Of a DNA stretch of 35,013 bases, positions 1-27,052 are shown in pieces. The notes under the pieces are model-generated. The model was given only the letters and a program-made list of their open reading frames with translations. It was not told the DNA's origin and ran no database searches. This DNA comes from Gammaproteobacteria bacterium (GTDB taxonomy: Bacteria > Pseudomonadota > Gammaproteobacteria > Steroidobacterales > Steroidobacteraceae). The stretch spans positions 1 to 35,013 of the forward strand of contig JASHTA010000458.1 in NCBI GenBank assembly GCA_030040795.1, given 5' to 3'. Both the position numbers and the translations under genes were made by a program. Numbering within the stretch: position 1 is the first letter of the stretch; every line of letters begins with the position of its first letter.

Positions 1-1601
1 AGAATCGCAAGGAGCGGCATCACGATCACGAGCATCGAGGGCGAGATGAACGCGAAGGTGTCGGTGAGCGGAACGAGAATCCAGCCGCTCGCGAGGGTAT
101 GCGCTATCGGAGCGCCGAACTTGAGCACGTCCGCACTGTCGAGCGCGCGCAGGCAGACCGGCAAGGCGACGGCGGACCCGAGGACGGCAAGGCCGAGCAG
201 CAGTACGGCCGCATCGTAGCCGGGACCCACGTGGGGCGACTTCGGTCGGTGCCCGTCGCCGAGCAGGCCGATGCCGAATGCCTTGACGAAAGTGGCGAAG
301 GCCACGGCCGCCGTCAGTGCGAGCCCCGCGCCGGCGAGGGCGAGCGTGAGGCGCCCGGCAAGCGAGGCGAGATGAAAACCCTGGAACACCGTTTGAAACG
401 TGAACCACTCGGTCACGAAACCGATCTGCGGCGGGAGCGCCGCGAGGCTCATCGTGGCGAAGAGCGCCCCGATGCCGAACACGAAGCTCGTCGTCCGCAG
501 CCAGCCGTGCTGTGCGAGGTGATAGCTGCCCCCCGCGGCGTAGACCCCGTCCGAGCAGAGGAACAAGCCTCCCTTTGCGAGCGCATGACCCGAGAGGTGC
601 AGGATCGCGACGGTCCACGCGAGCCCCGCCAGGCTCGGCTGTCCGCCGGCCCGGAAGAGCAGACTCGCTCCGAGGGCCGTGACGGCGATCGCCGCGTTTT
701 CCGCGGAAGAGAACGACAGCAACCGACGCCAGTCGTCCTGCTGGAACGCATAGAGTGCCGCGAGGATCGAGGAGATCACCGCGACCGCCGTGACGAGAAT
801 CCCGACGCCGAAGAGCCCTGCACTGCCGGCGGGCAGCCACTCCAGGAGACCTCTCGATAGCGCGAAGAACGCCGCGTTGAGCACGATGCCGGAGAGGAGA
901 GCTCCGGATGCGCCGCTGCCGCTCGCGTAGGCGCCCGGGAACCACTCGTAAAAGGGGAGAAGCCCCAGCTTTGCGCCGAATCCGATGAGGAGAAGCACGG
1001 CAACGAGCACCCGCACACCCGCCGGCCAGGCGGCTGCCCCGGCGGCGAACCGCGTGAAATCGACGCTTGCATGGGCGCCCTGTGCGAGCAAGAGCAGGGC
1101 AAGCAATATCGCGACCGCGCCAATCTCGAGCAGCGCGAGCATGTACAGCGTGGCGCGGCCGGCTGCGGGCGACGTGCGCTCGGCGAGAAGCATCACCGCA
1201 CCGCCGAGGCTCATGATCTCCCACGCGACGAGGAAGGAGTACGCGTCCTGAACTCCAAAGACGCCGAGTGCGCCGATGAGCGACAGTGCCACGCCCGCGA
1301 GCCATCCGGAACGCGCTGCGCGGAAGGGGGTGCAAAGCGCAACGGCGAGCGCCGCCGGCAACAGGCCGAAGGCGATCAGCCAAAGCGCCTCGGGGGCGTA
1401 ATGGAGCCTGACCGGCACGTCCGACAGGGCGATGGGCAGGGTGAGCGCACCGCTACCTTGCAGCAATCCTGAAGCCGCGCCCCAGATGCCGACGGCCGCG
1501 CCGAGCGCGACCAGTATGCGTGCAATGGCCGGCAGCCGTGCGAGCGCTGCGAGCAAGCCCGCGATCCACAGCCAGAAGGCGCCGGCAAGCAGCTCAGGCA
1601 C
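1..1601 (-). CDS. hyfB: Hydrogenase-4 component B-like / MrpD-NuoL-family proton-translocating subunit (partial, runs off left edge; GTG start near 1601)
   Basis: Manual minus-strand translation from GTG 1601 (VPELLAGAFWLWIAGLLAAL...YSFLVAWEIMSLGGAVMLL...GFGAKLGLLPFYEWFPGAYASGSGASGALLSGIVLNAAFF...) stays open to position 1; start overlaps the stop of the upstream gene. Confidence 0.85.
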   Translation of the reverse strand, partial: MPELLAGAFWLWIAGLLAALARLPAIARILVALGAAVGIWGAASGLLQGSGALTLPIALSDVPVRLHYAPEALWLIAFGLLPAALAVALCTPFRAARSGWLAGVALSLIGALGVFGVQDAYSFLVAWEIMSLGGAVMLLAERTSPAAGRATLYMLALLEIGAVAILLALLLLAQGAHASVDFTRFAAGAAAWPAGVRVLVAVLLLIGFGAKLGLLPFYEWFPGAYASGSGASGALLSGIVLNAAFFALSRGLLEWLPAGSAGLFGVGILVTAVAVISSILAALYAFQQDDWRRLLSFSSAENAAIAVTALGASLLFRAGGQPSLAGLAWTVAILHLSGHALAKGGLFLCSDGVYAAGGSYHLAQHGWLRTTSFVFGIGALFATMSLAALPPQIGFVTEWFTFQTVFQGFHLASLAGRLTLALAGAGLALTAAVAFATFVKAFGIGLLGDGHRPKSPHVGPGYDAAVLLLGLAVLGSAVALPVCLRALDSADVLKFGAPIAHTLASGWILVPLTDTFAFISPSMLVIVMPLLAI

Positions 1602-2544
1602 GCTCGCTCTCCCCGACGATCTGGCCGCCCCGCACGCGCTGGGGCATGCGCCGCACCAGCATCAAAAGCGCATGGATGATCGCGGCCGGGTTGGGCGGAC
1701 AGCCGGGAACGTAGAGGTCCACCGGCAATACCCCTTCGAGCCCGTTGCCACAGGCATATCCGCCACCGTTGGTTCCGCCGGACACCGCGCAGGTGCCGAG
1801 CGCCATGACGAAGCGAGGCTCGGGCATCGCCCGATAGGCCTCCTGAAGCGGGTTCCTCAGGGCGTGGGTCACGGGCCCCGTGACGAGCAGCAGATCGGCG
1901 AAGCGGGGCGAGGGCGTGAAGAAGATGCCGAGACGATGCAGGTTGTAGAAGGGATTGTTGAGCGCCTGCAGCTCCGACTCGCAGCCGTTGCACGAGCCGG
2001 CATCGACGTGGCGGATGTGCAGGCTCCGTCCAAAGATGCGGCGGATCTCGCCTTTCAATTCCTTCTCCGCCGCAGAATCGCCGGCACCGGCACCCGCGTC
2101 GGCACGGGCACCGGCGGCACCCACGTTGGCGCCGACGCCTGCAGCCACACCCGAGGGGCGCGCCCACAGCAGGTCCTCCCGCCGGCGCACGCCGAAGGCC
2201 CAATCGTTCGATGGGCTGAACGCCTCCGTTGGACAGACCTCTACGCACATCTGGCAGACGACGCAGCGGCCATAGTCGACCTTGAGGCGCGCGCCGCCTC
2301 GCGACGCGCCGAGCGAATCCGCGCTGCCGTCGATGGGGTCCCCCTCCTCGATGGCGATCGCACCAGGCAGGCACGCATCCGCGCACTCGCGGCAGCCGCT
2401 CTGGCACTTCGCGGGATCGAACCGCGGCATCCCGAGAACGCCAGACTGGCCGTCGTCACCCTCGGACGGCCATTTCGTGCTGGCCTTGCCCTGCTTCAGC
2501 CCATATCGCGTCCAAAATGGCATGGCTTCTCTCCGCCCCTTCAA
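1594..2544 (-). CDS. Fused ferredoxin (HyfH-like) + hydrogenase small-subunit (HyfI/HycG/NuoB-like) protein
   Basis: Two 4Fe-4S motifs (CQSGCRECADACLPGA; CVVCQMCVEVCPTEAF), then SCNGCESELQALNNP...GTCAVSGG...GCPPNP. Confidence 0.88.
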   Translation of the reverse strand: MKGRREAMPFWTRYGLKQGKASTKWPSEGDDGQSGVLGMPRFDPAKCQSGCRECADACLPGAIAIEEGDPIDGSADSLGASRGGARLKVDYGRCVVCQMCVEVCPTEAFSPSNDWAFGVRRREDLLWARPSGVAAGVGANVGAAGARADAGAGAGDSAAEKELKGEIRRIFGRSLHIRHVDAGSCNGCESELQALNNPFYNLHRLGIFFTPSPRFADLLLVTGPVTHALRNPLQEAYRAMPEPRFVMALGTCAVSGGTNGGGYACGNGLEGVLPVDLYVPGCPPNPAAIIHALLMLVRRMPQRVRGGQIVGESERA

Positions 2545-4235
2545 CGGGCGCAGCCCGCGACCGTGAGGCCGAAGCTGGCCTCGTTGATGGCGTAGTCCAT
2601 CATGTTCGACTGGTGAACGGTGTGGGGGAATACGCGCCAGTTCGAGAAGCTCGGCGACTTGATCTTGACCCGCGCGAGCTTCCCGGCCGAATCGAGATGC
2701 ACGGCGTAGTAGACGGAGCCGCGTGGCGACTCCGCCCAGCCGAGGCCTTCACCCCGGGCGGCAGGCGGGCACTCCGCGCGGATGGCACCGGACGGCAATC
2801 CGCCGAGTGCGGCCTGGATGAGCTCGATGCTGTTCAGGGTTTCGGCGATCCGAACCTGCTGGCGCGCATGCGCATCGCATCCGTCGCTCGTGGCCACACG
2901 CAGCGGCAGCTCGCGATAAACGCCGTAGGGTTGATCGCGCCGCGGATCGCGATCCACTCCGGAGGCGCGCTCGATCGGGCCCGTGGCCCCCAGGTCGAAC
3001 GCGAGCTGCTTGCCGAGCACACCCGTCGTGATCAGCCGGTCGAGATGGGTCGTGGTGGTCTCGAGCATCTCCGCGTAACGCGCAAACTCGCGGTGGATCT
3101 TCGCGAGCCGCACGGCGATTCCGCCGAGACGCGGCTCGCGCCTGAGGCCGCCCGGGCAGACGAGGCTGCGCAGGAAGCGGCTGCCCGTCGCCTCCGCATT
3201 CAACTGCTTGGCGAGCTCCTCGAGATATTTGCCCTCGGCTTCTCCGACCTTGAGCGTCGTGGTGTGACAGAGATGGCCGAAGTAGTGCAGATGGTTGTAG
3301 AGCCGCTCGAGCTCCGCGAGGAGCACGCGCAGCCACTCGGCTCGCGGGGGCACGTCGCACTTCGCGGCCGCCTCGAGCGCTCGAGAGTAAGCGAGCGCGT
3401 GCGCGACGCTCCCGACGGCCGAGACCCGCTCGGCAAGGACGGTGCCGAGCTCGGGTCGTATGCCCTCGAAGCGCTTCTCCATTCCGCGATGCTTGAAGAA
3501 GAGCTGCGGGTCGTAGTGGAGGATCCCCTCGCCGATGTAGAAGAACGTGAACTGCGCCGACTCGAGCACGTCGGCCCGAATGGGACCGAAGGGAAGGAGT
3601 TGCACGTCGCGGTGCGCCGAGCCTGCGACTTCCGGCAAGCTCGAGGGCTCCGGAGCATACGAAAGCGGTGGTGCCGCTCCGGGGCGCAACGGCGGGCGCG
3701 TGGCGCGCGCGCCGGGCAACAGCACGAGCGGCTCGGGCTGCGGCTGATTCTGAAAGGACAGTCCGCACAGATCGGTGATCTCCCGCTCATACCAGGAGAC
3801 GAGCGGGGCGATGGACGCGAGGCTCGGCGGCGGAAGCGTTCCCGGCCGGCAGCGCCAGATCTCCGGCGGATGCCCTGCCGAGGAGTGAACGACATAGCGC
3901 AGCTCGATGGTCTCGGGCGGCGCAGCCTCGGCGCCGCTCCCCTGCACGTGCGGCTCGCCGGCGGTCTCCGGAAACCAGGCGTAGGCGAGCTGTACGCGCG
4001 CTCCCGCCGCAACCGCAGCGCCGCAGCGTTGCTCCAGGTCGCGGAGCGGCACGTCCCGGATCGGTGTGGCGTGGGCTTCCTGCCGCGCCCGCAACGGAGG
4101 CTGCTCCGGGCTCACGGACTGCCTCCGATCGCAAGCTGTGCGGCGATTACGGCGAAATAGTGCGCGAAGGCGCGCGGCCACCACACGCCGAGCACCAGAA
4201 GCGGTACGAGCGCGAGCCACATCGGCAGCACGCAC
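2541..4235 (-). CDS. Hydrogenase-4 large-subunit-like protein (NuoC-NuoD/HyfG-HycE type) lacking the [NiFe] CxxC motifs; true start probably near 4113
   Basis: N-terminal NuoC-like region (EREITDLCGLSFQNQPQPEPLVLLPG), HycE-like core (GILHYDPQLFFKHRGMEKRFEG...ERVSAVGSVAHALAYSRALE...NHLHYFGHLCHTTT). Conserved gene order with neighbouring hyf homologues. Confidence 0.88.
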   Translation of the reverse strand: MRAADVARARTASGARRVVAARLRALFRRNRRTACDRRQSVSPEQPPLRARQEAHATPIRDVPLRDLEQRCGAAVAAGARVQLAYAWFPETAGEPHVQGSGAEAAPPETIELRYVVHSSAGHPPEIWRCRPGTLPPPSLASIAPLVSWYEREITDLCGLSFQNQPQPEPLVLLPGARATRPPLRPGAAPPLSYAPEPSSLPEVAGSAHRDVQLLPFGPIRADVLESAQFTFFYIGEGILHYDPQLFFKHRGMEKRFEGIRPELGTVLAERVSAVGSVAHALAYSRALEAAAKCDVPPRAEWLRVLLAELERLYNHLHYFGHLCHTTTLKVGEAEGKYLEELAKQLNAEATGSRFLRSLVCPGGLRREPRLGGIAVRLAKIHREFARYAEMLETTTTHLDRLITTGVLGKQLAFDLGATGPIERASGVDRDPRRDQPYGVYRELPLRVATSDGCDAHARQQVRIAETLNSIELIQAALGGLPSGAIRAECPPAARGEGLGWAESPRGSVYYAVHLDSAGKLARVKIKSPSFSNWRVFPHTVHQSNMMDYAINEASFGLTVAGCAR

Positions 4236-5596
4236 CAGAAGGCCGTTCCCGCGGCGCGCGGCTGCCTATGGACAGCGGCCGACTCGGGGTGCTCGCCGAA
4301 GTACATCGTGCGAAAGTGATTGAGGAAGCCGATGAAAATCACGATGAGGAGCAGGAGCATCACGAAGACGGCCCACGCATTGGGCCCGGCGAGCCCCGCG
4401 CGCAGGATCGTGAACTCGCTCAAGAACAGCCCGAAGGGCGGCGCACCGGTGATCGCGACGGCGCCCGCCATCCACAGCAGGCCTGCGACCGGCATGGCGG
4501 TGAGGACGTAGTGGATGCGGCCGATCCGCTTGCTGTGAAAGGCGTGCATGGCGTCGCCTGCGCCGAAGAACATGAGCGACTTGTTGAGCGAGTGGTTGAG
4601 CATGTGATAGAGCGCGCCCGCGACCCCGAGCGGCCCGCCGAAGCCGAAGCCGAGCGTCATGACGCCCATGTGCTCGACGCTCGAGTACGCCATGAGGCGC
4701 TTGATCTCGGTCTGCCGAGTGATGAAGAGGGCGGCGATCAGAAGCGAGAGAGCGCCGATCACGACGACGACGGTGCGCGGCAGCGTGCCGAGATGCGCAC
4801 TGTCGGCGACCTGAATGAACCGGGCGATGCCGATCATCGCGGTGTTGAGGAGCGCGCCGGAGAGCATGGCGGACACGGGCGCGGGTCCCTCGCTGTGCGC
4901 ATCCGGGAGCCAGGTGTGCATCGGCGCCAAGCCCACCTTCGTTCCGAAGCCGATGAAGACCAGCAGGAAAGCGGCGAGCGCGATGGTCGGATTGAGCCGC
5001 GGCGCGACCGAGCGCAGCGCGGACCATGTGAGATCGTACGTCGCGCCGAGCGTGAGGCTTCCCCCCCAATAAAAGAAGATGATCCCGAGGAGCGCGAGGC
5101 TGATGCCCGCGGAGACGACGATGATGTACTTCCAGGCGGCCTCGACGCTCTCGCGCGTGCGCTCGAAGCCGACGAGGAATGTGCTGACGAGCGTCGTGAG
5201 CTCGATCGCGATCCAGTACACACCGACGTTGTTCATGAGGGGACCCAAGAGCGTCGTCAGCGCAAACCCGGCGAAGAGCGCGTAGAAGCGATGCAGGCGT
5301 TTCTCCTCGTCGAGCGCGCGCATGTAGCCGATGGCGTAGATCGAGGCGAGGAGATAGACGGTGGCGACGGAGAGCAGCACCCAGGCGCCGAGCGGATCGA
5401 CGATGAGGTAGCCGCGCCAGAGCGTGAACGGGCCCCCGAGCGCTCGTGGCAGGAGCGCGATCACGGCGCCGAAGGAGACGATGGCCGCGATCAGGTTGAG
5501 ATATTCGGAGGCTCGCGGCCGGCGCAAGGCGAGGCAGCCTGCGACCGCGGCGAGCGGCGCGAGCAGAATGACGGCGACGAGCGCTCCGATGCTCAT
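4112..5596 (-). CDS. hyfF: Hydrogenase-4 component F-like / NuoL-N family antiporter-like subunit
   Basis: Start MSIGALVAVILLAPLAAVAGCL at 5596; GFGTKVGLAPMHTWLPDAHSEGPAPVSAMLSGALLNTAMIG. Confidence 0.9.
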   Translation of the reverse strand: MSIGALVAVILLAPLAAVAGCLALRRPRASEYLNLIAAIVSFGAVIALLPRALGGPFTLWRGYLIVDPLGAWVLLSVATVYLLASIYAIGYMRALDEEKRLHRFYALFAGFALTTLLGPLMNNVGVYWIAIELTTLVSTFLVGFERTRESVEAAWKYIIVVSAGISLALLGIIFFYWGGSLTLGATYDLTWSALRSVAPRLNPTIALAAFLLVFIGFGTKVGLAPMHTWLPDAHSEGPAPVSAMLSGALLNTAMIGIARFIQVADSAHLGTLPRTVVVVIGALSLLIAALFITRQTEIKRLMAYSSVEHMGVMTLGFGFGGPLGVAGALYHMLNHSLNKSLMFFGAGDAMHAFHSKRIGRIHYVLTAMPVAGLLWMAGAVAITGAPPFGLFLSEFTILRAGLAGPNAWAVFVMLLLLIVIFIGFLNHFRTMYFGEHPESAAVHRQPRAAGTAFWCVLPMWLALVPLLVLGVWWPRAFAHYFAVIAAQLAIGGSP

Positions 5597-6291
5597 CCCG
5601 TGAGCCTCCGCAGCTCGAGCGTGCTGGAAGTTCCGGCGTGGACGACGAGGTAGCGCACGAGCACTCCGAAGCAAGCGACCACGACGAGCAGGTCGAAGAG
5701 GATCACGAGCTCGATGAGGAGCGGCATCCCGGGGACGAGAATCTGCGATCCGAGGAAGATGCCGTTCTCGAGCACGAGAATGCCGAGAACCTGGGAGATC
5801 ACCTCGCTGCGCACCGTGAGCATGAGAAAGCCGATGAGCTTCATCGACAGCATCACCGTGAGGGCGAGGACGGCAACCGTACCGGTGAGGCCGAGCGCCT
5901 GCCCGAGATGCGTCGCGACGACGAACGCGAACACGACGAGCATCGCGCCGACGACGAGGCTCGAGCTGGGAGCGAGGCGCTCGTGCAGCTCCCGATCGAC
6001 CTTCAGGCGGCGGACGATCCGCAGAAGCAGATAGGGCAGCACGAGCCCCCTGAAGAGCGCCGTGAGGACCGCGATGCCGTAGAGCTCGGGGTAGCCGCCA
6101 TAGAAGGCGACAGCCGCCGAAAGCAGTGCGATGAGCCACGACTGGACGGCGAACGCGATCAGGTACTCATACAGCCAGCGCGAGCCCAGCATCACGAACG
6201 CGAGCAGCAGGCTCGTGATCGCGAGGAGGCTGAAGAGCGAGCCGGCGAGGGGGGGTAACGCAGCGGCGAAGATGCCGTGAGCAGCCGGCAT
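5593..6291 (-). CDS. hyfE: Hydrogenase-4 component E-like membrane protein
   Basis: Start MPAAHGIFAAALPPLAGSLFSLL at 6291; multi-TM HyfE-like protein, stop/start overlap with the next gene. Confidence 0.82.
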   Translation of the reverse strand: MPAAHGIFAAALPPLAGSLFSLLAITSLLLAFVMLGSRWLYEYLIAFAVQSWLIALLSAAVAFYGGYPELYGIAVLTALFRGLVLPYLLLRIVRRLKVDRELHERLAPSSSLVVGAMLVVFAFVVATHLGQALGLTGTVAVLALTVMLSMKLIGFLMLTVRSEVISQVLGILVLENGIFLGSQILVPGMPLLIELVILFDLLVVVACFGVLVRYLVVHAGTSSTLELRRLTG

Positions 6292-6293
6292 AC

Positions 6294-7238
6294 CTACCTC
6301 AATTGGTTGGCGACGATCGCGAGGATCGCGAGGAGAAAGGATGCCGCAAGCGGCTCCTGGTAGCGGTAGTACCGCAGGCGCGATTGCGCGGTCTCGACGA
6401 ACACGACCGCCGCGGCAACCACCAGGAACTTCACGAACAGCGCCACGGCCGCCGCGAAGGCGCCCACCGCGAGCCCCTGGATCGACAGGCCCCAGGGCAG
6501 GAGCAGCACGTTGCAGAAGATCGTGTAGAGGATGAATTGCTTCATCGCCGAGGCCCACTTGAGCAATGCGAGGAGCGGTCCCGAGTACTCGAGAATCCGC
6601 GCCTCCTCGATCATGTACACCTCGATGTGCGTGCTCGAGTGGATGGGCAGCCGGTCCGTCTCGACGAGGAGGAGGATGAAGAAGGCTGCGACCAGGAAGA
6701 GGTGGGCCGGACCCCAGTACACGACGGGCTGCTGCACCAGCAGGTGATTCACGACGAAGGGCAGCATCGACTTGGCGAGGAGCGTGATCCCGACGAAGAC
6801 GAGGATGAGCGTGGGTTCGGCGAGGATGCCGAGCATCACGGTGCGCGATGAGCCGATCCCGCCGTAGGCGCTCCCGGAATCGAGTCCCGCGATCGTGATC
6901 ATGAAGGACCCGAGCGTGAGGATCAGGCCGCCGCCCAGGATATCGCCCATGTCCGAGAGCGGCAGCGGGAAATTCGTGAGGACGGGGATCAGGATCGGCA
7001 CCGTCAGCATGCAGGTGAAAGCGACGACGGGCGCGAACCAGTAGATGAAGCTCGCCGTTTCGGGCACGACGAGCTGTTTGTGGAAGAGCTTCCACAAGTC
7101 CCGGTAGGGCTGGAAGATGCCGGGCCCCTGCGCGCGCTGGACGCGCTCCTCCCATTGGACGATCACACCTTGAAGCAGGGGAGCCAGAGCGAGGACGGTG
7201 AGAACTTGCGCGATCTGCAGCAGGACGTCGCGGATCAC
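6294..7238 (-). CDS. hyfC: Hydrogenase-4 component C-like / NuoH-family subunit (GTG start at 7238 favoured; ATG at 7325 also possible)
   Basis: VIRDVLLQIAQVLTVLALAPLLQGVIVQWEERVQRAQGPGIFQPYRDLWKLFHKQ..., typical NuoH/HycD motif. Confidence 0.88.
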   Translation of the reverse strand: MIRDVLLQIAQVLTVLALAPLLQGVIVQWEERVQRAQGPGIFQPYRDLWKLFHKQLVVPETASFIYWFAPVVAFTCMLTVPILIPVLTNFPLPLSDMGDILGGGLILTLGSFMITIAGLDSGSAYGGIGSSRTVMLGILAEPTLILVFVGITLLAKSMLPFVVNHLLVQQPVVYWGPAHLFLVAAFFILLLVETDRLPIHSSTHIEVYMIEEARILEYSGPLLALLKWASAMKQFILYTIFCNVLLLPWGLSIQGLAVGAFAAAVALFVKFLVVAAAVVFVETAQSRLRYYRYQEPLAASFLLAILAIVANQLR

Positions 7239-7386
7239 AGCCGGTCTGCCTTTCGCTCGCCCAGGTTGGGGCGACCTCTGCGGCAATGTCGAGCGTTCAG
7301 GGAACGGAGCCGGGCCTGCCTCCAAGGCTGGATTTCACAGGCACGCAACAGCCGCTTCGGGCTTGAATCAAGCTCGGGTCTATGCA

Positions 7387-7421
7387 CTACCAATCCTCTC
7401 GTCACGAGACGGACTTGGTAG
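7387..7421 (-). promoter_or_regulatory. Candidate expression-platform hairpin of riboswitch R1, overlapping the aptamer 3' end
   Basis: Minus strand: CTACCAA-g-TCC-g-TCTCG-TGA-CGAGA-GGA-TTGGTAG. The 5' arm overlaps the CCTACC end of the aptamer. Confidence 0.6.
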
Positions 7422-7467
7422 GCATCATCAGCCGATTCCCGGCGGTTCAAGGAGGAATGCCATCTCC
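7417..7467 (-). ncRNA. Fluoride riboswitch (crcB motif) R1, leader of the hyf/Ehr operon
   Basis: Minus strand GGAGATGGCATTCCTCCTTGAACCGCCGGGAATCGGCTGATGATGCCTACC: P1 GGAG/CTCC, pseudoknot GGCAT/ATGCC, P2 GCCG/CGGC, conserved AACCGC and GCTGATGA. Confidence 0.9.
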
Positions 7468-7477
7468 GTCAGCCCGG

Positions 7478-7506
7478 AATATACGGATGACTGTGAAGAT
7501 CAGCAA
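7478..7506 (-). promoter_or_regulatory. Candidate sigma70-type promoter for the R1/hyf transcript
   Basis: Minus strand TTGCTG (7506-7501), 17-bp spacer, TATATT (7483-7478); predicted TSS just 5' of the R1 aptamer. Confidence 0.6.
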
Positions 7507-7531
7507 GCGCGCCGGAAAGCGACTCGCGCGC

Positions 7532-7560
7532 TTGCGTGCCAGAGCCGATCCCTCTAGGAT
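7532..7560 (+). promoter_or_regulatory. Candidate sigma70-type promoter for the R2/dynamin-MutS operon
   Basis: TTGCGT (7532-7537), 17-bp spacer, TAGGAT (7555-7560); predicted TSS a few nt before the R2 aptamer. Confidence 0.55.
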
Positions 7561-7571
7561 GAAGTTGACGC

Positions 7572-7624
7572 GGGAGATGGCCTCCTCCCCCAAAAGAACC
7601 GCCGCTTCGGCTGATGACGCCTGA
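7572..7624 (+). ncRNA. Fluoride riboswitch (crcB motif) R2, leader of the dynamin/ATPase/MutS-like operon
   Basis: GGGAGATGGCCTCCTCCCCCAAAAGAACCGCCGCTTCGGCTGATGACGCCTG: P1 GGGAG/CTCCC with 8-nt loop ATGGCCTC, P2 GCCG/CGGC, AACCGC, GCTGATGACGCCTG; pseudoknot GGCCTC/GACGCC with one mismatch. Confidence 0.88.
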
Positions 7625-7629
7625 ACCGC

Positions 7630-7642
7630 CCTCGCGGCGAGG
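7630..7642 (+). promoter_or_regulatory. Candidate SD-sequestering hairpin downstream of R2
   Basis: CCTCG-CGG-CGAGG, with the 3' arm containing the GAGG ribosome-binding site about 10 nt before ATG 7652. Confidence 0.5.
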
Positions 7643-7651
7643 ATCGGCGCC

Positions 7652-9736
7652 ATGTTCAACGAGAGCCAGCAACGCTATCTGGTGAGCCGGCTACGCAGCA
7701 TCGACGAGATGCTGAGCGAGGCGGTCGAGCGCCTTGCGCCCTCCGATAGCGGCCAGGTCTTTCGCGCCGTCGACGCCGATGCGACGCCCGCTCAGCGCAA
7801 GGTCCTCGCCGATCATCTCGCTCAGGTGCGCTTCGCGCTGCGCCGCTTCATGCTTGCCCGTCAGCTGCGCGACGAGCGCCGACCGACCGGAGGGTTGTGG
7901 TCCCTCCAGACCACGCTCGCTTTTGCGCAGGTTGCCGCGGAGGAGCTCAGACCCAAGTACTGGAGCGGCTACGGCGAGGTGGATCCCGAGTCCGCGGCGG
8001 CCGCCGAGCGCCTCGCGGCAGAGCTCGTGACACTGCTGCATCGGATGCAGGATTCCATCGCCCGGGGCGCGATGGGCGGACTTGCCGAGCGGATCGAGCG
8101 GCTGTCGAGCACACGCGAGGAGATTGCCCTCCTCAAGGAGCTGGAGCGCATCATCTCCCATCATGGGCTCCTCGAGCTGCGCGCGCCGCTCGAGGCGCTG
8201 GTGGAGCGAGCCGCATCGCCGCGCTTCGAGATTGCGGTCTTCGGCCGGGTGAGTGCCGGAAAGTCCTCTCTTCTCAACTGGTGGCTGGGCACCGCGCTGC
8301 TGCCCACCGGCATCACGCCGGTTACGGCGGTGCCGACCCGCATCGTGCACGGGAATGCGGCGCGCGTGCGGATCGAGCGGACCGGCGCCGCGCCGGTCGA
8401 AGTTCCCGTCGAGGATCTCGCGGCCTACATCAGCGAGCAAGGCAATCCGGCGAACGTCAAGCGAGTCCTGCGTGTTCTCATCGAAGCGCCCGCTTTGCGT
8501 CTCGAGGGCGGTATCCGCCTGGTTGACACACCGGGACTCGGTTCCCTGGCGACGGTCGGCGCGGCGCAGACGCTCGAATACCTGCCGCAGTGCGACCTCG
8601 GCGTCCTGCTCATCGAGGCCGGAGCACCTGTGGCGCCGGACGATCTCGACGTGGCCCGGGCACTTCTCGATGGAGGGAGCGACCTCGTCATCGCCTTGAG
8701 CAAGGCCGACCGGTTGAGCAGCGAAGAGCTCGAAGAGGCGCTGGCGTATGTCAAAGGGCAGTTCGAAGCTCGGCTCTCGATACCCTGCACGGTGCGGCCC
8801 GTCAGCACGGTCTCGGGGCACGAGGCACTGGCGGAGGCATGGTTTGCGGAGACCTTCGCGCCCCGCCTTGCGAGCCACACCGAGCGGGCGGCCGAGGCCC
8901 TCCGGCGCAAGATCGCCGTGCTGCGCGAATCGGTCGTCGCCGTGCTCGATGCGCGGCTGGGGCCCCCACATGCGGGATCGTCTGCGGAAGCCTCGAGCTC
9001 GGCCAAGGCTCCCCCGGTGGCCGACAGCTCGATGCGGCTCCACGACCGGATTGCACAAGTGCGCTCCGACTTCGAGCGGGCGAGATCGGAGCTGCTCGAT
9101 TTCAAGATTCGGCTGCCTCGCTTCAATGTCCGCGTGGTCGAAAGTGCGGCACGCGAGCTCGCCGGCTGCTGGATGGAAGGCGATCGGACCGCGGAACGAA
9201 CCCGGGATCGCGTGGCGGCGGCCATCGCCGGCTGTGCCGACGAGGTGGGACATGCGGTCATGAGCCGGCTCGATGAGCTGTGGGACAGCGTGATGCGAAT
9301 CGTCGAGGACAGCGCTCCCCACTTTGAGCGTGGAGCGATGGACGCCGAGAGCGCAAGGCGCGAGGCGGAGCGGGAGATCGCGCGGCCCCGCGGCCGTCCG
9401 GTATTCGATACGGCCGCGGTGTTGAGAAACCCGCTCCGGTGGGCTTCGCCCCAGTGGCTCCCCCGCTGGTCGCGCGTGCTGCTGGCGATCGCGCGGGCGC
9501 GCTTGAGACGGACGGTGCTTCCCGCCCTCACGACTCAGCTCGGTGTGTATGGCGATGCCCTTCACCACTGGGCGGTGGACTGCCTGGATCAACTGGGGCG
9601 CCGGTTCGATGCCGCGGTCGCGGCGCGCGAGAGCGCGGAGCGGTTCAGCGCGGAGCGCCCACTCACGGCGGAGGCGGCACGGGCCGCCCGGCGCGATCTC
9701 GAGCGGCTACAGCAGTGGCCGGCGGACGCGGCGTGA
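7652..9736 (+). CDS. Dynamin-like large GTPase (DLP 1)
   Basis: G1 GRVSAGKSS, G3 DTPGLGS, G4-like SKAD, DLP motif YISEQGNPANVKRV. Confidence 0.88.
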   Translation: MFNESQQRYLVSRLRSIDEMLSEAVERLAPSDSGQVFRAVDADATPAQRKVLADHLAQVRFALRRFMLARQLRDERRPTGGLWSLQTTLAFAQVAAEELRPKYWSGYGEVDPESAAAAERLAAELVTLLHRMQDSIARGAMGGLAERIERLSSTREEIALLKELERIISHHGLLELRAPLEALVERAASPRFEIAVFGRVSAGKSSLLNWWLGTALLPTGITPVTAVPTRIVHGNAARVRIERTGAAPVEVPVEDLAAYISEQGNPANVKRVLRVLIEAPALRLEGGIRLVDTPGLGSLATVGAAQTLEYLPQCDLGVLLIEAGAPVAPDDLDVARALLDGGSDLVIALSKADRLSSEELEEALAYVKGQFEARLSIPCTVRPVSTVSGHEALAEAWFAETFAPRLASHTERAAEALRRKIAVLRESVVAVLDARLGPPHAGSSAEASSSAKAPPVADSSMRLHDRIAQVRSDFERARSELLDFKIRLPRFNVRVVESAARELAGCWMEGDRTAERTRDRVAAAIAGCADEVGHAVMSRLDELWDSVMRIVEDSAPHFERGAMDAESARREAEREIARPRGRPVFDTAAVLRNPLRWASPQWLPRWSRVLLAIARARLRRTVLPALTTQLGVYGDALHHWAVDCLDQLGRRFDAAVAARESAERFSAERPLTAEAARAARRDLERLQQWPADAA

Positions 9737-10491
9737 GGCGTGGAGAGCCCGGAATGGCCGAAATGCGCTGGCCCCCCGGCTTCGTGTCGGAGTTGGCGCG
9801 GCGCCTGCGGCATGGGGAGCATCTGGCGCTTTGGGGTCCGCGCGGCAGCGGCAAATCCGCCGTCCTCGCGGAGCTTCAGGCGCGGCTGATCCGCATGCAG
9901 GTGCCCTGCGGTCTCTCACCCTCCACGACTTCGCTCGACGACATCACACGCGCGCTGGAGAGAGCCTATCCGGGTGTGGATACGGTGGAAATCGGACGGC
10001 GCACCGCCCGTGCACGGCTGTGGTGGGTTGCCGATCAGCACCCCGGGGTGCTGCTCCTCGATCACTTGTCGGATGTGAGCAATGCCATGGTCGCCTTCCT
10101 GCGCCGGTTGCACGGTGGCGTGATCGGCGCGCTCTCCGCGCTCGATGTCGACGACGAGCGCGAGCGGCGGGAGGTGAAGCCTTGGCGTTACGGCGCGATG
10201 TCCGTGCGCATGCCACTGACCTCCCGCTCCCGCTTGCGAAGGCTGCTGCGGGCGCGCCGTGCGCGTCTCGGCCTGCCGCCGCTCGATGAGAATCTGGAGC
10301 ATCGATTCCTGCACGCGGCACGGGGCCGACCCGGCTGGATCGTCCGATGCACCGAGCTCGAGTGCGATCGGCGCTACTGGTGCGAGCACGGGTTGCTCGT
10401 CACCGTGCTCTGCACGGACGCGGAGGTCGCGGTGCGCTTTGGCGCGCTCGATCTGCTTCGCCCCGCAGCGGACGCGGAGCCGCGCGTGTGA
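9733..10491 (+). CDS. Small P-loop ATPase/NTPase (GTG start at 9733 overlapping the preceding stop; ATG 9754 alternative)
   Basis: Walker A GPRGSGKS, Walker B-like HPGVLLLDHL; GTGA overlap with the upstream stop. Confidence 0.75.
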   Translation: MRRGEPGMAEMRWPPGFVSELARRLRHGEHLALWGPRGSGKSAVLAELQARLIRMQVPCGLSPSTTSLDDITRALERAYPGVDTVEIGRRTARARLWWVADQHPGVLLLDHLSDVSNAMVAFLRRLHGGVIGALSALDVDDERERREVKPWRYGAMSVRMPLTSRSRLRRLLRARRARLGLPPLDENLEHRFLHAARGRPGWIVRCTELECDRRYWCEHGLLVTVLCTDAEVAVRFGALDLLRPAADAEPRV

Positions 10492-12053
10492 CGGACGACC
10501 GGCCGTCCTTCAGCAGCATCCTTTTTGATCGTCCCTCCTGCGGCGCGGACGAGCGGCGGGGCGAGCCGGAGTGCTTCGGAGATCTGCATCTGGATCAGAT
10601 CGTGGCGGCGGTGACGGCGGGGCGCGGCGAATACGAGCTGCAATCTCTCTTCCATGCCCCTCTGCAGAGCATCGCGGCCATTCACTATCGCCACGAGGTT
10701 TTCCGCGATCTGGAGGATCGCGTGCTGCGTGCGCGGGTCGGCGCCTTCGGCGAGGCCATGCGGAGCGTGCGGGAGCGCCTCGCTCAGTCGCAGAAGGCAC
10801 ATTACCGCCTGCAGCAGCAGCGCTGGTTTCTCGATGCCGCGAGCCTCTATTGCGAGGCTGTCGTGCGGCTGCACGCGGATCTCGGCGCGACCCAGGTGCA
10901 ATCGCGCGGGCTGTGCGCTTTGCGCGGCTTTCTGGGTCCATTCGTGCGCTCCGAGGGATTCGGATCGATGCGCGATGAGGCACGGCGGATCGCCGAGGCT
11001 CTCGCGGCGATCCGCTACGAGCTGTACATCGACGGCGCTCGCATCGAGGTGCGGCGCGATCAGGGCGAGCCCGACTACGGCGCCGAGGTGTCGAAGGTTT
11101 TCGCCAAGTTCGAGCGGCCGGGAGCCAAGGAGTACCGATTCCGTTTCCACGAGTACCGGGACATGAATCACGTGGAAGCGGAGATCCTCGAGCGCGTCGC
11201 CCTGCTCTTCCAGAGCACCTTCGCCGCGCTCGCGGCGTTCTGCGATCGCTATCGCGAGGCGGCGTTCGATCCCACGATTCTGCGGTTCGACCGGGAGGTG
11301 CAATTCTATCTCGCGTATCTCGAGCACAGGGCTCACATCGAGGCCGCCGGCCTTGCCTTCTGCTATCCGGAAGTCAGTGACCGCTCGAAGGCCGAAGGGG
11401 GCGAGGCGTTCTTCGACCTTGCGCTCGCGGGCCGCCTCGCAGCCGAGCGCAAGGCAGTCGTGACCAACGACTTCCATCTCGAAGGCGCGGAGCGAGTCCT
11501 CGTCGTCTCCGGCGCCAATCAGGGAGGCAAAACCACGTTCGCCCGCGCATTCGGCCAGCTTCACTATCTTGCCGCGCTCGGATGCCCGGTGCCGGCGCGC
11601 AAGGCGCGGCTCCTGCTCTTCGATGGGCTTTATACGCACTTCGAGCGGGAGGAGCGCGTCGAGAGCCTGCGCGGCAAGCTCGAGGATGAGCTCCTTCGGA
11701 TGAGACGCATCCTCGATGCGGCCACCGCGCGCAGCGTCCTCATCATGAACGAGAGTTTCGGCTCCACGACGCTCGAGGATGCGCTCTACCTCGGGCAGCG
11801 GGTTCTGCGCCGAGTGATCGACCGGGACCTCATCTGTGTCTGCGTGACTTTCGTCGAGGAGCTCGCCTCGCTCGATCGGGCGACGGTCAGCATGGTGAGC
11901 CAGGTCGATCCGGCAGACCCCACGGTGAGGACCTTCCGCGTGGTGAGGCAGCCTGCGGACGGGCTCGCCCACGCCCTCGCGATCGCCCGCAAGCATCATC
12001 TCCGCTACGAGGAGATCCGAGCGCGCATCGTGGCCCGGAGCGCTTCCGCATGA
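10488..12053 (+). CDS. MutS-like ATPase A (no mismatch-recognition domain apparent)
   Basis: GTG start at 10488 overlapping upstream stop; Walker A SGANQGGKTTFARAFGQ, Walker B-like SVLIMNESFGSTT aligned to the MutS ATPase core. Confidence 0.85.
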   Translation: MTDDRPSFSSILFDRPSCGADERRGEPECFGDLHLDQIVAAVTAGRGEYELQSLFHAPLQSIAAIHYRHEVFRDLEDRVLRARVGAFGEAMRSVRERLAQSQKAHYRLQQQRWFLDAASLYCEAVVRLHADLGATQVQSRGLCALRGFLGPFVRSEGFGSMRDEARRIAEALAAIRYELYIDGARIEVRRDQGEPDYGAEVSKVFAKFERPGAKEYRFRFHEYRDMNHVEAEILERVALLFQSTFAALAAFCDRYREAAFDPTILRFDREVQFYLAYLEHRAHIEAAGLAFCYPEVSDRSKAEGGEAFFDLALAGRLAAERKAVVTNDFHLEGAERVLVVSGANQGGKTTFARAFGQLHYLAALGCPVPARKARLLLFDGLYTHFEREERVESLRGKLEDELLRMRRILDAATARSVLIMNESFGSTTLEDALYLGQRVLRRVIDRDLICVCVTFVEELASLDRATVSMVSQVDPADPTVRTFRVVRQPADGLAHALAIARKHHLRYEEIRARIVARSASA

Positions 12054-13630
12054 AGGCGCATCTGATGTTTCAGGACCGCGACTTCGACGCGAAAGCCGCG
12101 TTGCCGCGATCGGCCCAGGCGTTGACGCAGGACCTCGGGCTCGATGCGCTGTTCGATGCAATGGCGCAGGGCGACGAGTTCCTGCAGGACGTGGCGCGGC
12201 ACGCCGTGCTGACGAGCCTCGCGGATCCCGGGCAGATCGCCTATCGCCAGCGCGTTCTGGAGGACTCCCTCGCGCATCCCGACATCGCGAGGGACATGTA
12301 TGCGCTTGCGGTGGACGCGATCGAGCGTGAGAGACGGATCTGGGGCTGGACGCTCGACCGGCATCCGGAGAGCGTGCTCCGCCGTTCGCTCGATGTGCTG
12401 CGTCTTTTCGTCGAGATCCTGAGGAAGCTGAAGCGGATCGCCGAGGAGCGGGCGGAAGAGGTCCGCTCGGAAGGCTTCACGGGCCTATTTGCGATGCTGC
12501 GGACCGAGCTCGGCGAGGAGTATCTCGGGGAGGTCGAGCATCACCTCTCGCGCCTCGAGCTGCGCCGAGGCATGGTCCTCGGCGCGAAGCTCGGGGAGGG
12601 GAACAAGGCCGCCGGCTACGACCTGCGCAAATCCTCCGAGAGCCGAGGCGGCCTGCTGCAGCGGATTCAAACCTGGGTGGGACAGATCGGAAGCGATGAG
12701 CGATCGAGTCATGCCTTCGAGATCGACCCGCGTGATGAGGCCGGTCATCAGGCGCTCGGCGACATTCGCAGCCGCGGACTCGCCGTTGTCGCCATGAGAG
12801 TGGGGGACGCGGCCGATCACACGCTCGGCTTCTTCAGGATGCTGCGCGCCGAGCTGGCGTTCTATGTGGGTTGCCTCAACCTCCGGGACCGCCTGGCGGG
12901 AAAGGGCGAAGGGGTGTCGATCCCGCACACGGCACCGGCGGCGGACGAAGCACTTGCCGGCCGAGGCCTGTACGACATCGCGTTGGCGCTCAGCATGGAC
13001 GGCCGGGTCGTGGCCAACGACTTCAGCGCCGACGGCAAGCGCCTGATCATGATCACAGGCGCGAACCGCGGTGGCAAAACGACGTTCCACCGCAGCCTCG
13101 GGCAAGCCCAGCTGATGATGCAATGTGGCCTCTTCGTTCCGGCGGCGTTTTTCCGTGCAAGCCTCTGCGCCGGCGTGTTCACGCATTACAAGCGCGAGGA
13201 GGACGCCGGCATGAGGACGGGCAAGCTCGAGGAGGAGCTCAATCGGATGAGCGCGGTCGTGGACGAGCTGCGGCCGGGCAGCCTCATGCTGTTCAATGAA
13301 TCATTCGCCTCGACGAACGAGCGCGAGGGATCGGAGATCGCGCGCCAGATCGTGCAGGCGCTCCTGGACTCGGACGTGAGGGTCGCCTATGTCACGCACC
13401 TCTACGATCTCGCGCACGGGCTCCATCGTGCGCGGATGGGGACGGCGCTCTTTCTTCGCGCGGAGCGCCTGGCGGACGGTCGCCGGACGTTTCGCGTATT
13501 GGAAGGCGAGCCGCTGCCGACGAGCTACGGCCCGGACCTCTACAGCAGAATCTTCAGCGCGCCGCAGTCCGATGCGCCGAGTAGCGGCGGCCGACCCATG
13601 CAAAGAGAGGTACGGCCGCAAGCTGGGTGA
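12050..13630 (+). CDS. MutS-like ATPase B
   Basis: ATGA overlap with upstream gene; Walker A TGANRGGKTTFHRSLGQ, Walker B-like SLMLFNESFASTN. Confidence 0.85.
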   Translation: MKAHLMFQDRDFDAKAALPRSAQALTQDLGLDALFDAMAQGDEFLQDVARHAVLTSLADPGQIAYRQRVLEDSLAHPDIARDMYALAVDAIERERRIWGWTLDRHPESVLRRSLDVLRLFVEILRKLKRIAEERAEEVRSEGFTGLFAMLRTELGEEYLGEVEHHLSRLELRRGMVLGAKLGEGNKAAGYDLRKSSESRGGLLQRIQTWVGQIGSDERSSHAFEIDPRDEAGHQALGDIRSRGLAVVAMRVGDAADHTLGFFRMLRAELAFYVGCLNLRDRLAGKGEGVSIPHTAPAADEALAGRGLYDIALALSMDGRVVANDFSADGKRLIMITGANRGGKTTFHRSLGQAQLMMQCGLFVPAAFFRASLCAGVFTHYKREEDAGMRTGKLEEELNRMSAVVDELRPGSLMLFNESFASTNEREGSEIARQIVQALLDSDVRVAYVTHLYDLAHGLHRARMGTALFLRAERLADGRRTFRVLEGEPLPTSYGPDLYSRIFSAPQSDAPSSGGRPMQREVRPQAG

Positions 13631-14813
13631 TCACGCAGAAGCCGATCGCGGCAGGAATCGAGCGATCGTAGAGCATCCCGATCGCGGCGCTTCCCACGAA
13701 CCAGAAGAGGCCATAGCCCGCGGTGAAGAGTCCGAACGCCGAGGCGCGGCGGTCCGCGGCGATCATCGGCGAGACGGCGGCCGGAATGATCGATTCGTGC
13801 ACGCCGATGCCGAGTCCCCAGATTGCCGCGCCGATGAGGGCAACGGTGAAGTTGCCGAGGAACACGAGCGGCGCGAACGCGGCCGCGACCACCGTCAGGA
13901 CGATGAGCACCTTGAATCCGAAGCGATCGAACAACTTCCCGAAGACGAGCGAGCCGGTCCCGCTCACGGCCATCGCGACGGAGTAGAAAATCGCGACCCA
14001 TTCGGCGGGTACCACGGCGTGGCGCGACCAGTGGTACGCGATCAAGGGATAATCCGCGAAACCGGCGGCGACGAGCGCCGCTCCGGCCAGGTAGACCCAG
14101 TAAAGACTCGGCAACTGCTTGGCGCTCACGTCGGGCGGTTGAGGCGGCTCGAGGTCCTGAGGACGGGGATAGAGCCAACGGGCGGTGAGGACCAGCGCGA
14201 TGTTGATCGCGGCAGGGATCAGCAGAGCCGCAAAGGCCCGGTGGTAGTCGGCTCGGCGCGCGAGCAAAGCCGCGACGGCGAGCGGACCCGTAAGCGCGCC
14301 GAATTGATCGAGCGCTTCGTGCAAGCCGAACGCCCAGCCGTAGCCCCCGATCTGGCGGCCCGCATGAGAGAGCATGACGTCGCGCGGCGGATTTCGCGTC
14401 GCCTTGCCGACTCGCTCGAGAACGATCAGCGCCGCCGCGGCGGGCCAGCTGCGGGCGAGTGCGAGCGCCGGAACCGAAGCCATCTGGACGACGTAGCCGA
14501 GAATCGTGATCGCCCAGAATTCGCCCGTTGCATCCGCCCACCGCCCGGAGAGAAGTCGCAGGCCGTAGCCTGCCAGCTCGCCGAGGCCCATGATGATGCC
14601 GATCGCCGTGGCGGTGACGCCGAGCGATCCCAGGAAGGGACCCAAGATGCTCCTCGAGCCCTCGTAGGTCGCATCGGCGAAGAAGCTCAACAGGCCGATC
14701 AGCAGAACAAAACGCAGCGCGAGGCGGCGCGCCCGGGCCGCGTCGGCTGTCGCTCCCGTGCGCCCGGCAGTCCTGGCGGCCGAAGGCGAGCGGTCTCGAT
14801 CGCTCAGTCGCAT
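13554..14813 (-). CDS. MFS transporter
   Basis: Start MRLSDRDRS at 14813; 12-TM-like hydrophobic pattern, LLSFFADATYEGSRSILGPFLGSLG, GKATRNPPRDVML. Confidence 0.85.
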   Translation of the reverse strand: MRLSDRDRSPSAARTAGRTGATADAARARRLALRFVLLIGLLSFFADATYEGSRSILGPFLGSLGVTATAIGIIMGLGELAGYGLRLLSGRWADATGEFWAITILGYVVQMASVPALALARSWPAAAALIVLERVGKATRNPPRDVMLSHAGRQIGGYGWAFGLHEALDQFGALTGPLAVAALLARRADYHRAFAALLIPAAINIALVLTARWLYPRPQDLEPPQPPDVSAKQLPSLYWVYLAGAALVAAGFADYPLIAYHWSRHAVVPAEWVAIFYSVAMAVSGTGSLVFGKLFDRFGFKVLIVLTVVAAAFAPLVFLGNFTVALIGAAIWGLGIGVHESIIPAAVSPMIAADRRASAFGLFTAGYGLFWFVGSAAIGMLYDRSIPAAIGFCVITQLAAVPLFAWVGRRYSAHRTAAR

Positions 14814-15157
14814 TCTCCGACGGACGGAGGATCGGCCTGGTCCGGATTGATCACGCCGAAGCAGGCCGGCGTATACGCGTAGAAGAGGCGCACCTTCTCC
14901 CGGTGCAGCAAGTCGAGGAGCTTCTGGGCCTCCTCCGGCGTCACGATGAATTCCACTTCGACCGTGAGCGCCCCGGCGAGCTCGAAGAAGCGAGCCTCGT
15001 GCAAGACGTGGTGGCGGCCGAAGCCACCCATCGCCTTGAAGGCGGAGCCGCCGCGGATGCCCAACTTGTTGCCTTCGGCAAGGAGCCACTCCCACACGAG
15101 CTTGCCGTGATGCCGGTGATTCTCATGCACGTAGAAGCGAAAGAAGGACCCTTGCAT
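14804..15157 (-). CDS. DUF190 family protein (CrcB-associated)
   Basis: GKLVWEWLLAEGNKLGIRGGSAFKAMGGFGRHHVLHEARFFELAGALTVEVEFIV typical of DUF190; located next to crcB. Confidence 0.88.
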   Translation of the reverse strand: MQGSFFRFYVHENHRHHGKLVWEWLLAEGNKLGIRGGSAFKAMGGFGRHHVLHEARFFELAGALTVEVEFIVTPEEAQKLLDLLHREKVRLFYAYTPACFGVINPDQADPPSVGECD

Positions 15158-15714: not shown

Positions 15715-15723
15715 TGCCGCCAC

Positions 15724-15770
15724 GGGGATGGAGTCCCCCGCGAACCGCTCTCGATGCTAATGACTCCTGC
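15724..15770 (+). ncRNA. Fluoride riboswitch-like element (crcB motif) R3, plus-oriented, no evident cognate gene
   Basis: GGGGATGGAGTCCCCCGCGAACCGCTCTCGATGCTAATGACTCCTGC: P1 GGGG/CCCC with 8-nt loop ATGGAGTC, pseudoknot GGAGTC/GACTCC, AACCGC, GCTAATGA; P2 is weak. Confidence 0.75.
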
Positions 15771-15876
15771 CCAGTGTGTCGGATTGCACGCGCGGCAGGA
15801 GCATGCATGCCGGCCGCGTAGCGGGTATGCCATGCGCCAAGAGCACGCCGAGTCGTTCGCGCTTGAAAAGCCCTGC

Positions 15877-19697: not shown

Positions 19698-20759
19698 GTG
19701 CCGTCCCCCGTGCCGCAACCAGTCGTCGCCTCGCTCACGCGCGCCTCCGTCTTTCTCGTCGTGGCCGTAAACGCGGGGCCGGAATGCAATGCGGCAGTCC
19801 GGGCTCTGTGCAATGATCTCGCCGCTCTTCTGCGTGCGGTGAGCTTCCGGGATCTCGATGGCCGGTTGTCCTGCGTCATGGGGTTCGGCTCCGATGCCTG
19901 GGACCGCCTGTTCGGAGCGCCGAGGCCGAAGGAGCTGCACCCCTTCCGCGAAATACGCGGCCGCCATCACGCGGTGGCAACGCCGGGCGACATCCTCTTT
20001 CACATCCGCGCCACGCGCATGGATCTGTGCTTCGAGCTCGCGGCGCAGATCATGTCGCGGCTCGGCAACGCGGTTTCCGCGTTGGACGAAGTGCACGGCT
20101 TCAAATTTTTCGACGATCGCGACCTGCTCGGGTTCGTCGATGGAACGGAAAACCCCGTCGATCAAGCGGCGCTCGACGCGACGATCATCGGCGAGGAGGA
20201 CGCCGCGTTCGCCGGCGGAAGCTATGTGATCGTGCAGAAGTACCTTCACGACCTGAAAGCCTGGAACGGCCTGCCGGTCGAGCAACAAGAGAGAATCGTC
20301 GGCAGAACCAAATTGTCGGATATCGAGCTGGACGATACCGTCAAGGCAAGCTTCGCACACAACGTGCTGACCTCCGTCGTAGAGGATGGCAAGCAGCTCG
20401 AGATCGTGCGCGACAACATGCCGTTCGGGGAGGTGGGGAAGGGAGAGTTCGGGACGTATTTCATCGGTTACGCCCGGTCGCCCCGGAGAATCGAGCGGAT
20501 GCTCGAGAACATGTTCGTCGGCCAGCCGCCGGGCAACTACGACCGGCTCCTGGACTTCAGCCGTGCGGTGACGGGAACGCTCTTCTTCGTGCCCTCGGCG
20601 ACATTTTTGGACGATGTCTCGACCCAGGCATCGCCGCCGTCGGGCGCCGCCCCGAACGCCGACCCGCGCGAACCCCGGGATCCATCCCGCCCGCGAGGGT
20701 CTTCGCCCGACGGCTCACTCGGAATTGGCTCACTGAAAAGAGAGACCGGACATGAATAA
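19698..20759 (+). CDS. Dyp-type peroxidase with C-terminal encapsulin cargo-loading peptide
   Basis: GFVDGTENP heme-peroxidase motif; C-terminus DGSLGIGSLKRETGHE matches the known DyP encapsulin-targeting peptide type. Confidence 0.93.
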   Translation: MPSPVPQPVVASLTRASVFLVVAVNAGPECNAAVRALCNDLAALLRAVSFRDLDGRLSCVMGFGSDAWDRLFGAPRPKELHPFREIRGRHHAVATPGDILFHIRATRMDLCFELAAQIMSRLGNAVSALDEVHGFKFFDDRDLLGFVDGTENPVDQAALDATIIGEEDAAFAGGSYVIVQKYLHDLKAWNGLPVEQQERIVGRTKLSDIELDDTVKASFAHNVLTSVVEDGKQLEIVRDNMPFGEVGKGEFGTYFIGYARSPRRIERMLENMFVGQPPGNYDRLLDFSRAVTGTLFFVPSATFLDDVSTQASPPSGAAPNADPREPRDPSRPRGSSPDGSLGIGSLKRETGHE

Positions 20760-21555: not shown

Positions 21556-22088
21556 CCTCCTTCGATCTGGTCGGCTATGCCGCGGCGGCGTGCACCACGC
21601 TCGCCTTTGTGCCACAGCTGCTGAAAATCCGCCGCGAGCGCTCCACCGACGACATCTCCGGCGGCATGTACGTGGTGTACATCGCCGGCCTCGCCCTGTG
21701 GCTCGCTTACGGCGTTCTCGTCGCCTCCTGGCCGGTCATCATCGCGAACGCCGCGACGATGTGTTTCGCAACCGCAGTGCTCTCGATGAAATGGCGCTTC
21801 ACCCGTTCCTCTGCGGTTCCAAAGGGCCTGCAGAGGAGCGATCACTGTCCGCTTTGCGGGCAGCCTAACGACTGCGGGTCGAGCGCGGGCGCGCGAGCCT
21901 GCTGGTGCGTCGACGCCGCCATCTCTGCAAAGGCGCTCGAAGCCATTCCGCCCGGGCTGCGGGGTAAGGCCTGTTTGTGCAAGGCCTGCGCCTGCGGGCA
22001 GGCGCGAGCGCCTCATCAATCGAATCCGTCGCTGGCAGGCGAGCGGCTCGTTCGAGTATCATGCTCGACCCAGAGCGGCGGCAGTTGA
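21552..22088 (+). CDS. SemiSWEET/PQ-loop membrane protein fused to a C-terminal Cys-rich (CWC-like) domain (TTG start overlapping encapsulin stop)
   Basis: DLVGYAAAACTTLAFVPQLLKIRRERSTDDIS (SemiSWEET) followed by CPLCGQPNDCG...CWCVDAAISAKALEAIPPGLRGKACLCKACACG. Confidence 0.78.
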   Translation: MTSFDLVGYAAAACTTLAFVPQLLKIRRERSTDDISGGMYVVYIAGLALWLAYGVLVASWPVIIANAATMCFATAVLSMKWRFTRSSAVPKGLQRSDHCPLCGQPNDCGSSAGARACWCVDAAISAKALEAIPPGLRGKACLCKACACGQARAPHQSNPSLAGERLVRVSCSTQSGGS

Positions 22089-22089
22089 A

Positions 22090-27003: not shown

Positions 27004-27052
27004 AAGACCTGCCGCGCCAATCGTGGCAGGCGCGGTACCCGTTCATAGATTT

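Follow-up and report, generated by a model that had tools for sequence, protein, structure and literature searches.

How might fluoride control an operon for a membrane complex when the hairpin behind its riboswitch carries no U-tract? This question is raised by a locus of a Gammaproteobacteria bacterium of the Steroidobacteraceae, which lies in a stretch of 35,013 nucleotides that we call the window. The elements discussed below are listed in Table 1.

Table 1. Positions of the features in the window
Feature	Position	Strand	Evidence or remark
Candidate promoter	7478..7506	minus	TTGCTG 7506-7501, 17 nt, TATATT 7483-7478; read from sequence
Fluoride riboswitch aptamer R1	7412..7476	minus	RF01734, 58.5 bits, E 6.3e-14
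Pseudoknot 5' strand GGCAU	7457..7461	minus	read from RF01734 aptamer alignment
Switching hairpin	7382..7425	minus	predicted fold, -23.4 kcal/mol; form kept in relatives
Shine-Dalgarno-like GAGAGGA	7394..7400	minus	hairpin 3' arm; read from sequence
Leader ORF, 50 codons	7235..7387	minus	GTG start in hairpin; TGA overlaps next start
NuoH/HyfC-like membrane subunit, first operon gene	6294..7238	minus	PF00146, E 5.5e-34
HyfE-like region, limits approximate, named by position only	5593..6293	minus	open frame
HyfF/NuoL-like antiporter subunit, start approximate	4112..5596	minus	PF00361; hydrogenase-4 subunit F models
NuoC/D-like large subunit, start uncertain	2541..4235	minus	PF00346, PF00329; without [NiFe] ligands
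NuoI-NuoB fusion	1594..2544	minus	PF01058 and Fer4; proximal Fe-S cysteines kept
HyfB-like antiporter subunit, runs past window end	3..1601	minus	PF00361; hydrogenase 4 subunit B model
Divergent fluoride riboswitch R2	7564..7630	plus	RF01734, 39.8 bits; upstream of dynamin-like GTPase gene
Third fluoride riboswitch R3	15715..15776	plus	RF01734, 46.4 bits
nhaA-I RNA	26981-27040	minus	RF03057, 49 bits; upstream of NhaA 25717-27003

The aptamer end is shared with a hairpin that buries a ribosome binding site

An earlier note on this DNA had read a near-textbook fluoride aptamer on the minus strand, within a span (7387-7467) that takes in the hairpin and most of the aptamer, and had proposed a check with the RF01734 covariance model. 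We ran this search and the reading was confirmed, with R1 matched over its full length at 58.5 bits (gathering score, 34). This match predicts that R1 responds to fluoride. As read from the sequence, the R1 pseudoknot pairs GGCAU in the P1 loop with AUGCC in the 3' strand (7425-7421); the corresponding strands of other aptamers in our comparison are GGAGU and ACUCC. Just upstream of the aptamer, TTGCTG and TATATT make a weak candidate promoter: the TATATT is retained in three relatives (L011-L013), and a strict consensus promoter scan did not report the pair.

The hairpin described in the note (CTACCAA.TCC.TCTCG-TGA-CGAGA-GGA-TTGGTAG) was found as well, but it is longer than stated. Its base is extended by AUGC (7425-7422), which pairs with GCAU (7385-7382), and from 7425 to 7382 the predicted pairing is AUGC-CUACCAA-UCC-UCUCG with CGAGA-GGA-UUGGUAG-(U)-GCAU, at about -23 kcal/mol. 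The 5' arm thus absorbs the entire 3' strand of the pseudoknot. Because the hairpin uses all of AUGCC, the two folds are mutually exclusive, which agrees with the note's claim that the end of the aptamer doubles as a hairpin arm. Its view that this is no ordinary intrinsic terminator held too: the hairpin of such a platform is present but the U-tract is absent, and a scan of 7150-7760 returned 0 terminator-like sites. An intrinsic terminator in the window was rejected on these grounds.

What the note had missed is a coupled leader ORF whose Shine-Dalgarno (SD) sequence and start codon are buried in the hairpin. In the predicted fold, GAGAGGA is fully paired and the leader GTG also lies within the hairpin, an arrangement typical of an SD-sequestration platform, with SD and start paired in a fold that competes with the aptamer. 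Relatives have GGAGGA at the SD position. A switching hairpin of this kind could do without a U-tract because it would act by blocking the ribosome binding site.

A MAFFT alignment of the hairpins was too gappy apically for pair counting, and arm swapping was used instead. With a folding program that does not model pseudoknots, on which basis all hairpin energies were computed, native arms were compared with arms exchanged among loci that share a pseudoknot type, and gave -20.6 against -18.3 kcal/mol for a group of 17 loci and -17.6 against -12.4 kcal/mol for one of 41. The gap is a modest but consistent hint that pairing was maintained while the sequences changed.

The leader ORF is joined to the first gene of the operon

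The leader GTG (7387-7385) sits six bases past GAGAGGA, and the last 4 nt of the ORF, which ends with a TGA (7237-7235), are also the first 4 nt of the NuoH/HyfC-like gene, itself begun by a GTG. The resulting GTGA (7238-7235) is an NUGA stop-start overlap as expected of a termination-reinitiation pair. When four to five related leaders were compared, substitutions were spread evenly over codon positions 1, 2 and 3 (4,5,3; 8,11,11; 7,7,8), and the adjacent nuoH-like gene in the same comparisons gave 14,4,38; 21,7,76; and 17,5,72, as is usual for a gene. A conserved leader peptide was therefore rejected, the even spread being the reason. Indels between the closest leaders were of 3 bases. Leader residues thus seem to drift under a frame and stop position that are kept, and the peptide itself seems unimportant; as far as sequence comparison can tell, the sole job of the ORF seems to be delivery of ribosomes to the first pump gene.

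For any single locus, a frame match is not rare (shuffle P from 0.01 to 0.77 with the phase held). This makes the single-locus chance test weak, and we therefore moved the case to many loci and shifted-frame controls. The close set consisted of orthologous loci from the order, genus and family, with first subunits 83-94% identical. An ORF runs from the hairpin to the next start in all 16 of its loci with an R1-type aptamer, the window included. These ORFs have 21-53 codons, open at the hairpin with the SD in its 3' arm, and end at -4 relative to the NuoH-like start in 12 loci and at +3 in 4; among other frames of this set, 1/32 ends at that start. The divergent R1/R2 pair is kept in L011, L012 and L013.

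One aptamer and one operon are served by two expression platforms

A wider scan of named genomes yielded 80 loci from Alpha-, Beta- and Gammaproteobacteria. L070 was excluded as a second contig of the L069 genome and the window was added, which again made 80 loci to be scored (79 relatives and the window). They share some genomes with the close set, so the two sets of counts are not additive. The NuoH-like gene is preceded by a fluoride aptamer in 77/80 loci from all three classes, a count that takes in aptamers with GATAACTCC. This and the following counts are descriptive rather than formal probabilities, because search rules were tuned between counts and the loci are partly related.

Of the loci outside the Burkholderiaceae, 57/59 have an ORF that begins at the hairpin and stops at the NuoH-like start (the exceptions are L068 and L130), with the exact 4-nt overlap in 48/59. 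The leaders measure 76-201 nt, show a T-run in 2/59 and form 50 clusters below 70% identity; the start codon was scored as TTG in 9/57. When the start was chosen by SD score alone, the rule held in 48/55 cases, compared to 18/110 shifted frames. The layout of aptamer, hairpin and relay ORF thus recurs over three classes of Proteobacteria.

The Burkholderiaceae group (18 loci, one of them a MAG labelled Rudaea) has leaders mostly of 180-260 nt, in which a hairpin is followed by a T-run in 12/18 by the rule used, as in ATGCCTACAGGGTCCCCGG...CCGGTAGGCATTTTT, and the ORF rule holds in 3/18. By sequence, the usual platform of the Burkholderiaceae for this aptamer and operon is an ordinary terminator, which makes terminator and relay ORF a natural comparison of platforms.

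A paralogous operon on another contig of the same genome (C97), with a first subunit 44% identical, is also preceded by a fluoride aptamer. In some of its relatives (L055-L057) the hairpin immediately precedes the start of the NuoH-like gene itself, and in others (L027, L043, L047, L052-L054) it precedes a short ORF leading to that gene. Because a like hairpin can face the gene start in one case and a relay start in the other, this points to translation as the controlled step. The L027 relay ORF begins MAF, as does the NuoH-like protein in L055-L057, which suggests that relay ORFs can arise by splitting off an old gene start.

The operon encodes an Ehr-type complex

Ehr (energy-converting hydrogenase-related) complexes have subunits like those of group-4 hydrogenases, without NiFe ligands but with the Fe-S proteins kept. 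The earlier note had called the operon hydrogenase-4/Ehr-like, and of the two names only the second stands. Although it can be aligned with HycE of formate hydrogenlyase and with MBH, the large subunit has ERVSAVGSVAH in place of the N-terminal CxxC of hydrogenases and ends in FGLTVAGCAR, without DPCxxC. The two CxxC motifs that bind the NiFe site in [NiFe] hydrogenase 4 or formate hydrogenlyase are thus lacking, and the N-terminal, nickel-ligand CxxC was found in 0/71 relatives. The NuoB-like part retains its proximal Fe-S cysteines, as seen in an alignment to 7z0s_G, and the operon includes NuoH- and NuoL-like membrane subunits, in line with the ion-translocating membrane complex that the note had placed downstream of R1. 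The C97 counterpart of the HyfE-like region is a frame without a match in Pfam. No formate dehydrogenase gene was found among the window ORFs scanned. By its sequence, the operon encodes an Ehr-type complex, set apart from other Ehr complexes by the fluoride aptamer and the NuoI-NuoB fusion. The label formate hydrogenlyase does not fit these loci because the large subunit lacks the nickel-ligand CxxC.

Fluoride probably acts on translation of the leader

Given the aptamer, the overlapping hairpin, the buried SD and start, the coupled ORF and their conservation, all seen in the sequence and its comparison, we propose that R1 is a translational ON switch relayed via the leader ORF by termination-reinitiation, with a probability of about 0.72. 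Translation, not termination, is the likely point of control. In the absence of fluoride, AUGCC would pair into the hairpin, burying GAGAGGA and the leader GTG, and few ribosomes would load. In its presence, the docked aptamer would hold AUGCC in the pseudoknot and the hairpin would lose its base, leaving the leader SD and GTG exposed. Ribosomes would then translate the leader, stop at the UGA in GUGA and reinitiate on the NuoH/HyfC-like gene, whereupon the Ehr complex would be made. We infer fluoride binding by R1, leader translation and reinitiation; Rho, acting on a leader left untranslated, may add to the switching as a side effect. We count the use of GTG as the leader start in the window against this model.

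The hairpin could instead be a terminator, U-less or Rho-dependent, which fluoride would antiterminate and to which the leader ORF would be incidental. Intrinsic terminators are well documented in fluoride riboswitches (PMC13273304), Rho could be drawn to a leader that is not translated, and the Burkholderiaceae mostly have a hairpin and then a U-tract between the same aptamer and operon. A terminator, though, needs neither an SD and start in its 3' arm nor ORFs that end at the next start, and the Burkholderiaceae terminator group is largely without such an ORF (3/18); the U-tract, for its part, is absent in the window and present in only 2/59 of the remaining loci. We consider this reading improbable. 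We are just as skeptical of mixed control, in which fluoride gates leader translation but chiefly so that the long operon mRNA is shielded from Rho or RNase, and not for reinitiation on the NuoH-like gene. Variable leader length and an unconserved peptide would suit ribosome cover as well as coupling, but mere cover does not call for an exact 4-nt overlap, which is found in 48/59 loci.

It is very improbable that R1 no longer responds to fluoride or that the hairpin is a constitutive stability element. Fluoride binding by R1 is a prediction from sequence, which leaves some room for this view, but the aptamer fits the family consensus over its whole length and is kept in 77/80 loci of three classes.

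The locus has the setting of a fluoride-resistance island

The window contains three fluoride aptamers and the whole genome seven. R2 heads an apparent operon (7652-14882, plus strand) for a dynamin-like GTPase, an AAA ATPase and two MutS domain V proteins. No relay ORF intervenes here: in the window, as in several relatives, the hairpin is followed directly by the next start codon. In the R3 region (15715-15832, plus strand), the hairpin, CUCCUGCC..GGCAGGAG, has AGGAG in its 3' arm and is followed by ATG CCG GCC GCG TAG, four codons that are possibly a minimal relay ORF, and then by a long ORF (ATG 15832). Downstream of R3, after a second dynamin-like GTPase gene, a group of genes (19698-23466, plus strand) encodes a Dyp-type peroxidase, an encapsulin shell protein, a PQ-loop/CWC protein and a member of the CLC channel family; fluoride control of an encapsulin, if it occurs here, would be unusual. 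The same 35 kb contain an nhaA-I RNA, which belongs to a class of lithium riboswitches (PMC9646797).

Other loci show related settings. In L008 (contig C197), three more fluoride aptamers occur within 2 kb (4340-4404 and 5115-5176, minus strand; 6193-6252, plus strand), next to genes for a prenyltransferase-like protein and a CBS-domain protein and an ORF of unknown family. In L119, where the NuoH-like match is at 894, an element resembling the aptamer lies some 170 bases upstream of that match and has one of its internal segments duplicated (AACCGCCCTCAGGGATCCCATAACCGCCCTCTGGGATGATGACTCC). On a conjugative plasmid of a Burkholderia cenocepacia blood isolate (L138, NZ_CP073671.1), the Ehr operon lies in a related fluoride-resistance island, beside enolase, pyrophosphatase, mutS-like, dynamin-like, crcB and CLC genes. 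The window, too, has the setting of such an island.

Comparison with known systems

The association of crcB motifs with formate-hydrogenlyase-type genes, which the earlier note cited as established, is indeed published: crcB-motif genes listed by Weinberg 2010 include formate hydrogen lyase, mutS and Cl- or K+ transport (PMC2864571), and a 2024 review repeats the formate hydrogenlyase association (PMC11139923). Our loci share with those the aptamer, its link to a Hyf/Hyc-like operon and the mutS-like genes nearby, but differ in a large subunit without [NiFe] ligands. This corrects the label, since the fluoride-linked "formate hydrogenlyase" of these loci cannot be a [NiFe] hydrogenase, and shifts the question to the role of an Ehr complex under fluoride stress. 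The complex might be a dedicated fluoride-stress ion pump, with electrons passing from the Fe-S arm to a non-nickel site, that restores the proton gradient consumed by fluoride and by fluoride exporters and is gated via a content-free relay ORF, which would leave the aptamer hairpin and the first pump gene free to evolve separately, a speculative account that we think unlikely as a whole.

The link of crcB to such operons is thus known. A leader ORF as platform seems to be new among fluoride riboswitches; in a text search of the open literature, none of the matches listed joined a fluoride riboswitch with coupling or a leader peptide. Fluoride riboswitches would gain a translational platform that recurs and can be tested, and whose regulated ORF is a ribosome relay, not a source of peptide. 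In fluoride riboswitches with intrinsic terminators, of the B. cereus and T. petrophila type, the pseudoknot nucleotides change partner and become part of the base of the switching hairpin (PMC13273304). R1 shares the aptamer and, as proposed, this strand exchange and the ON logic with them, but lacks the U-tract, has an SD and start in the 3' arm and would have a coupled leader ORF as its output. For overlapping stop and start codons, coupling was strict in 13/14 tested pairs (PMC6728339). The nearest tested case is the ppe2 B12 riboswitch of Mycobacterium tuberculosis, where the stop of the uPPE2 uORF overlaps the next start (AUGA) and downstream expression needs uORF translation, mostly by termination-reinitiation (PMC11260477). 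R1 would likewise gate an ORF whose stop overlaps the next start. Whereas ppe2 is an OFF switch for B12 and a single case in M. tuberculosis, R1 is a proposed ON switch for fluoride that is found in many Proteobacteria and is built on a structurally unrelated aptamer.
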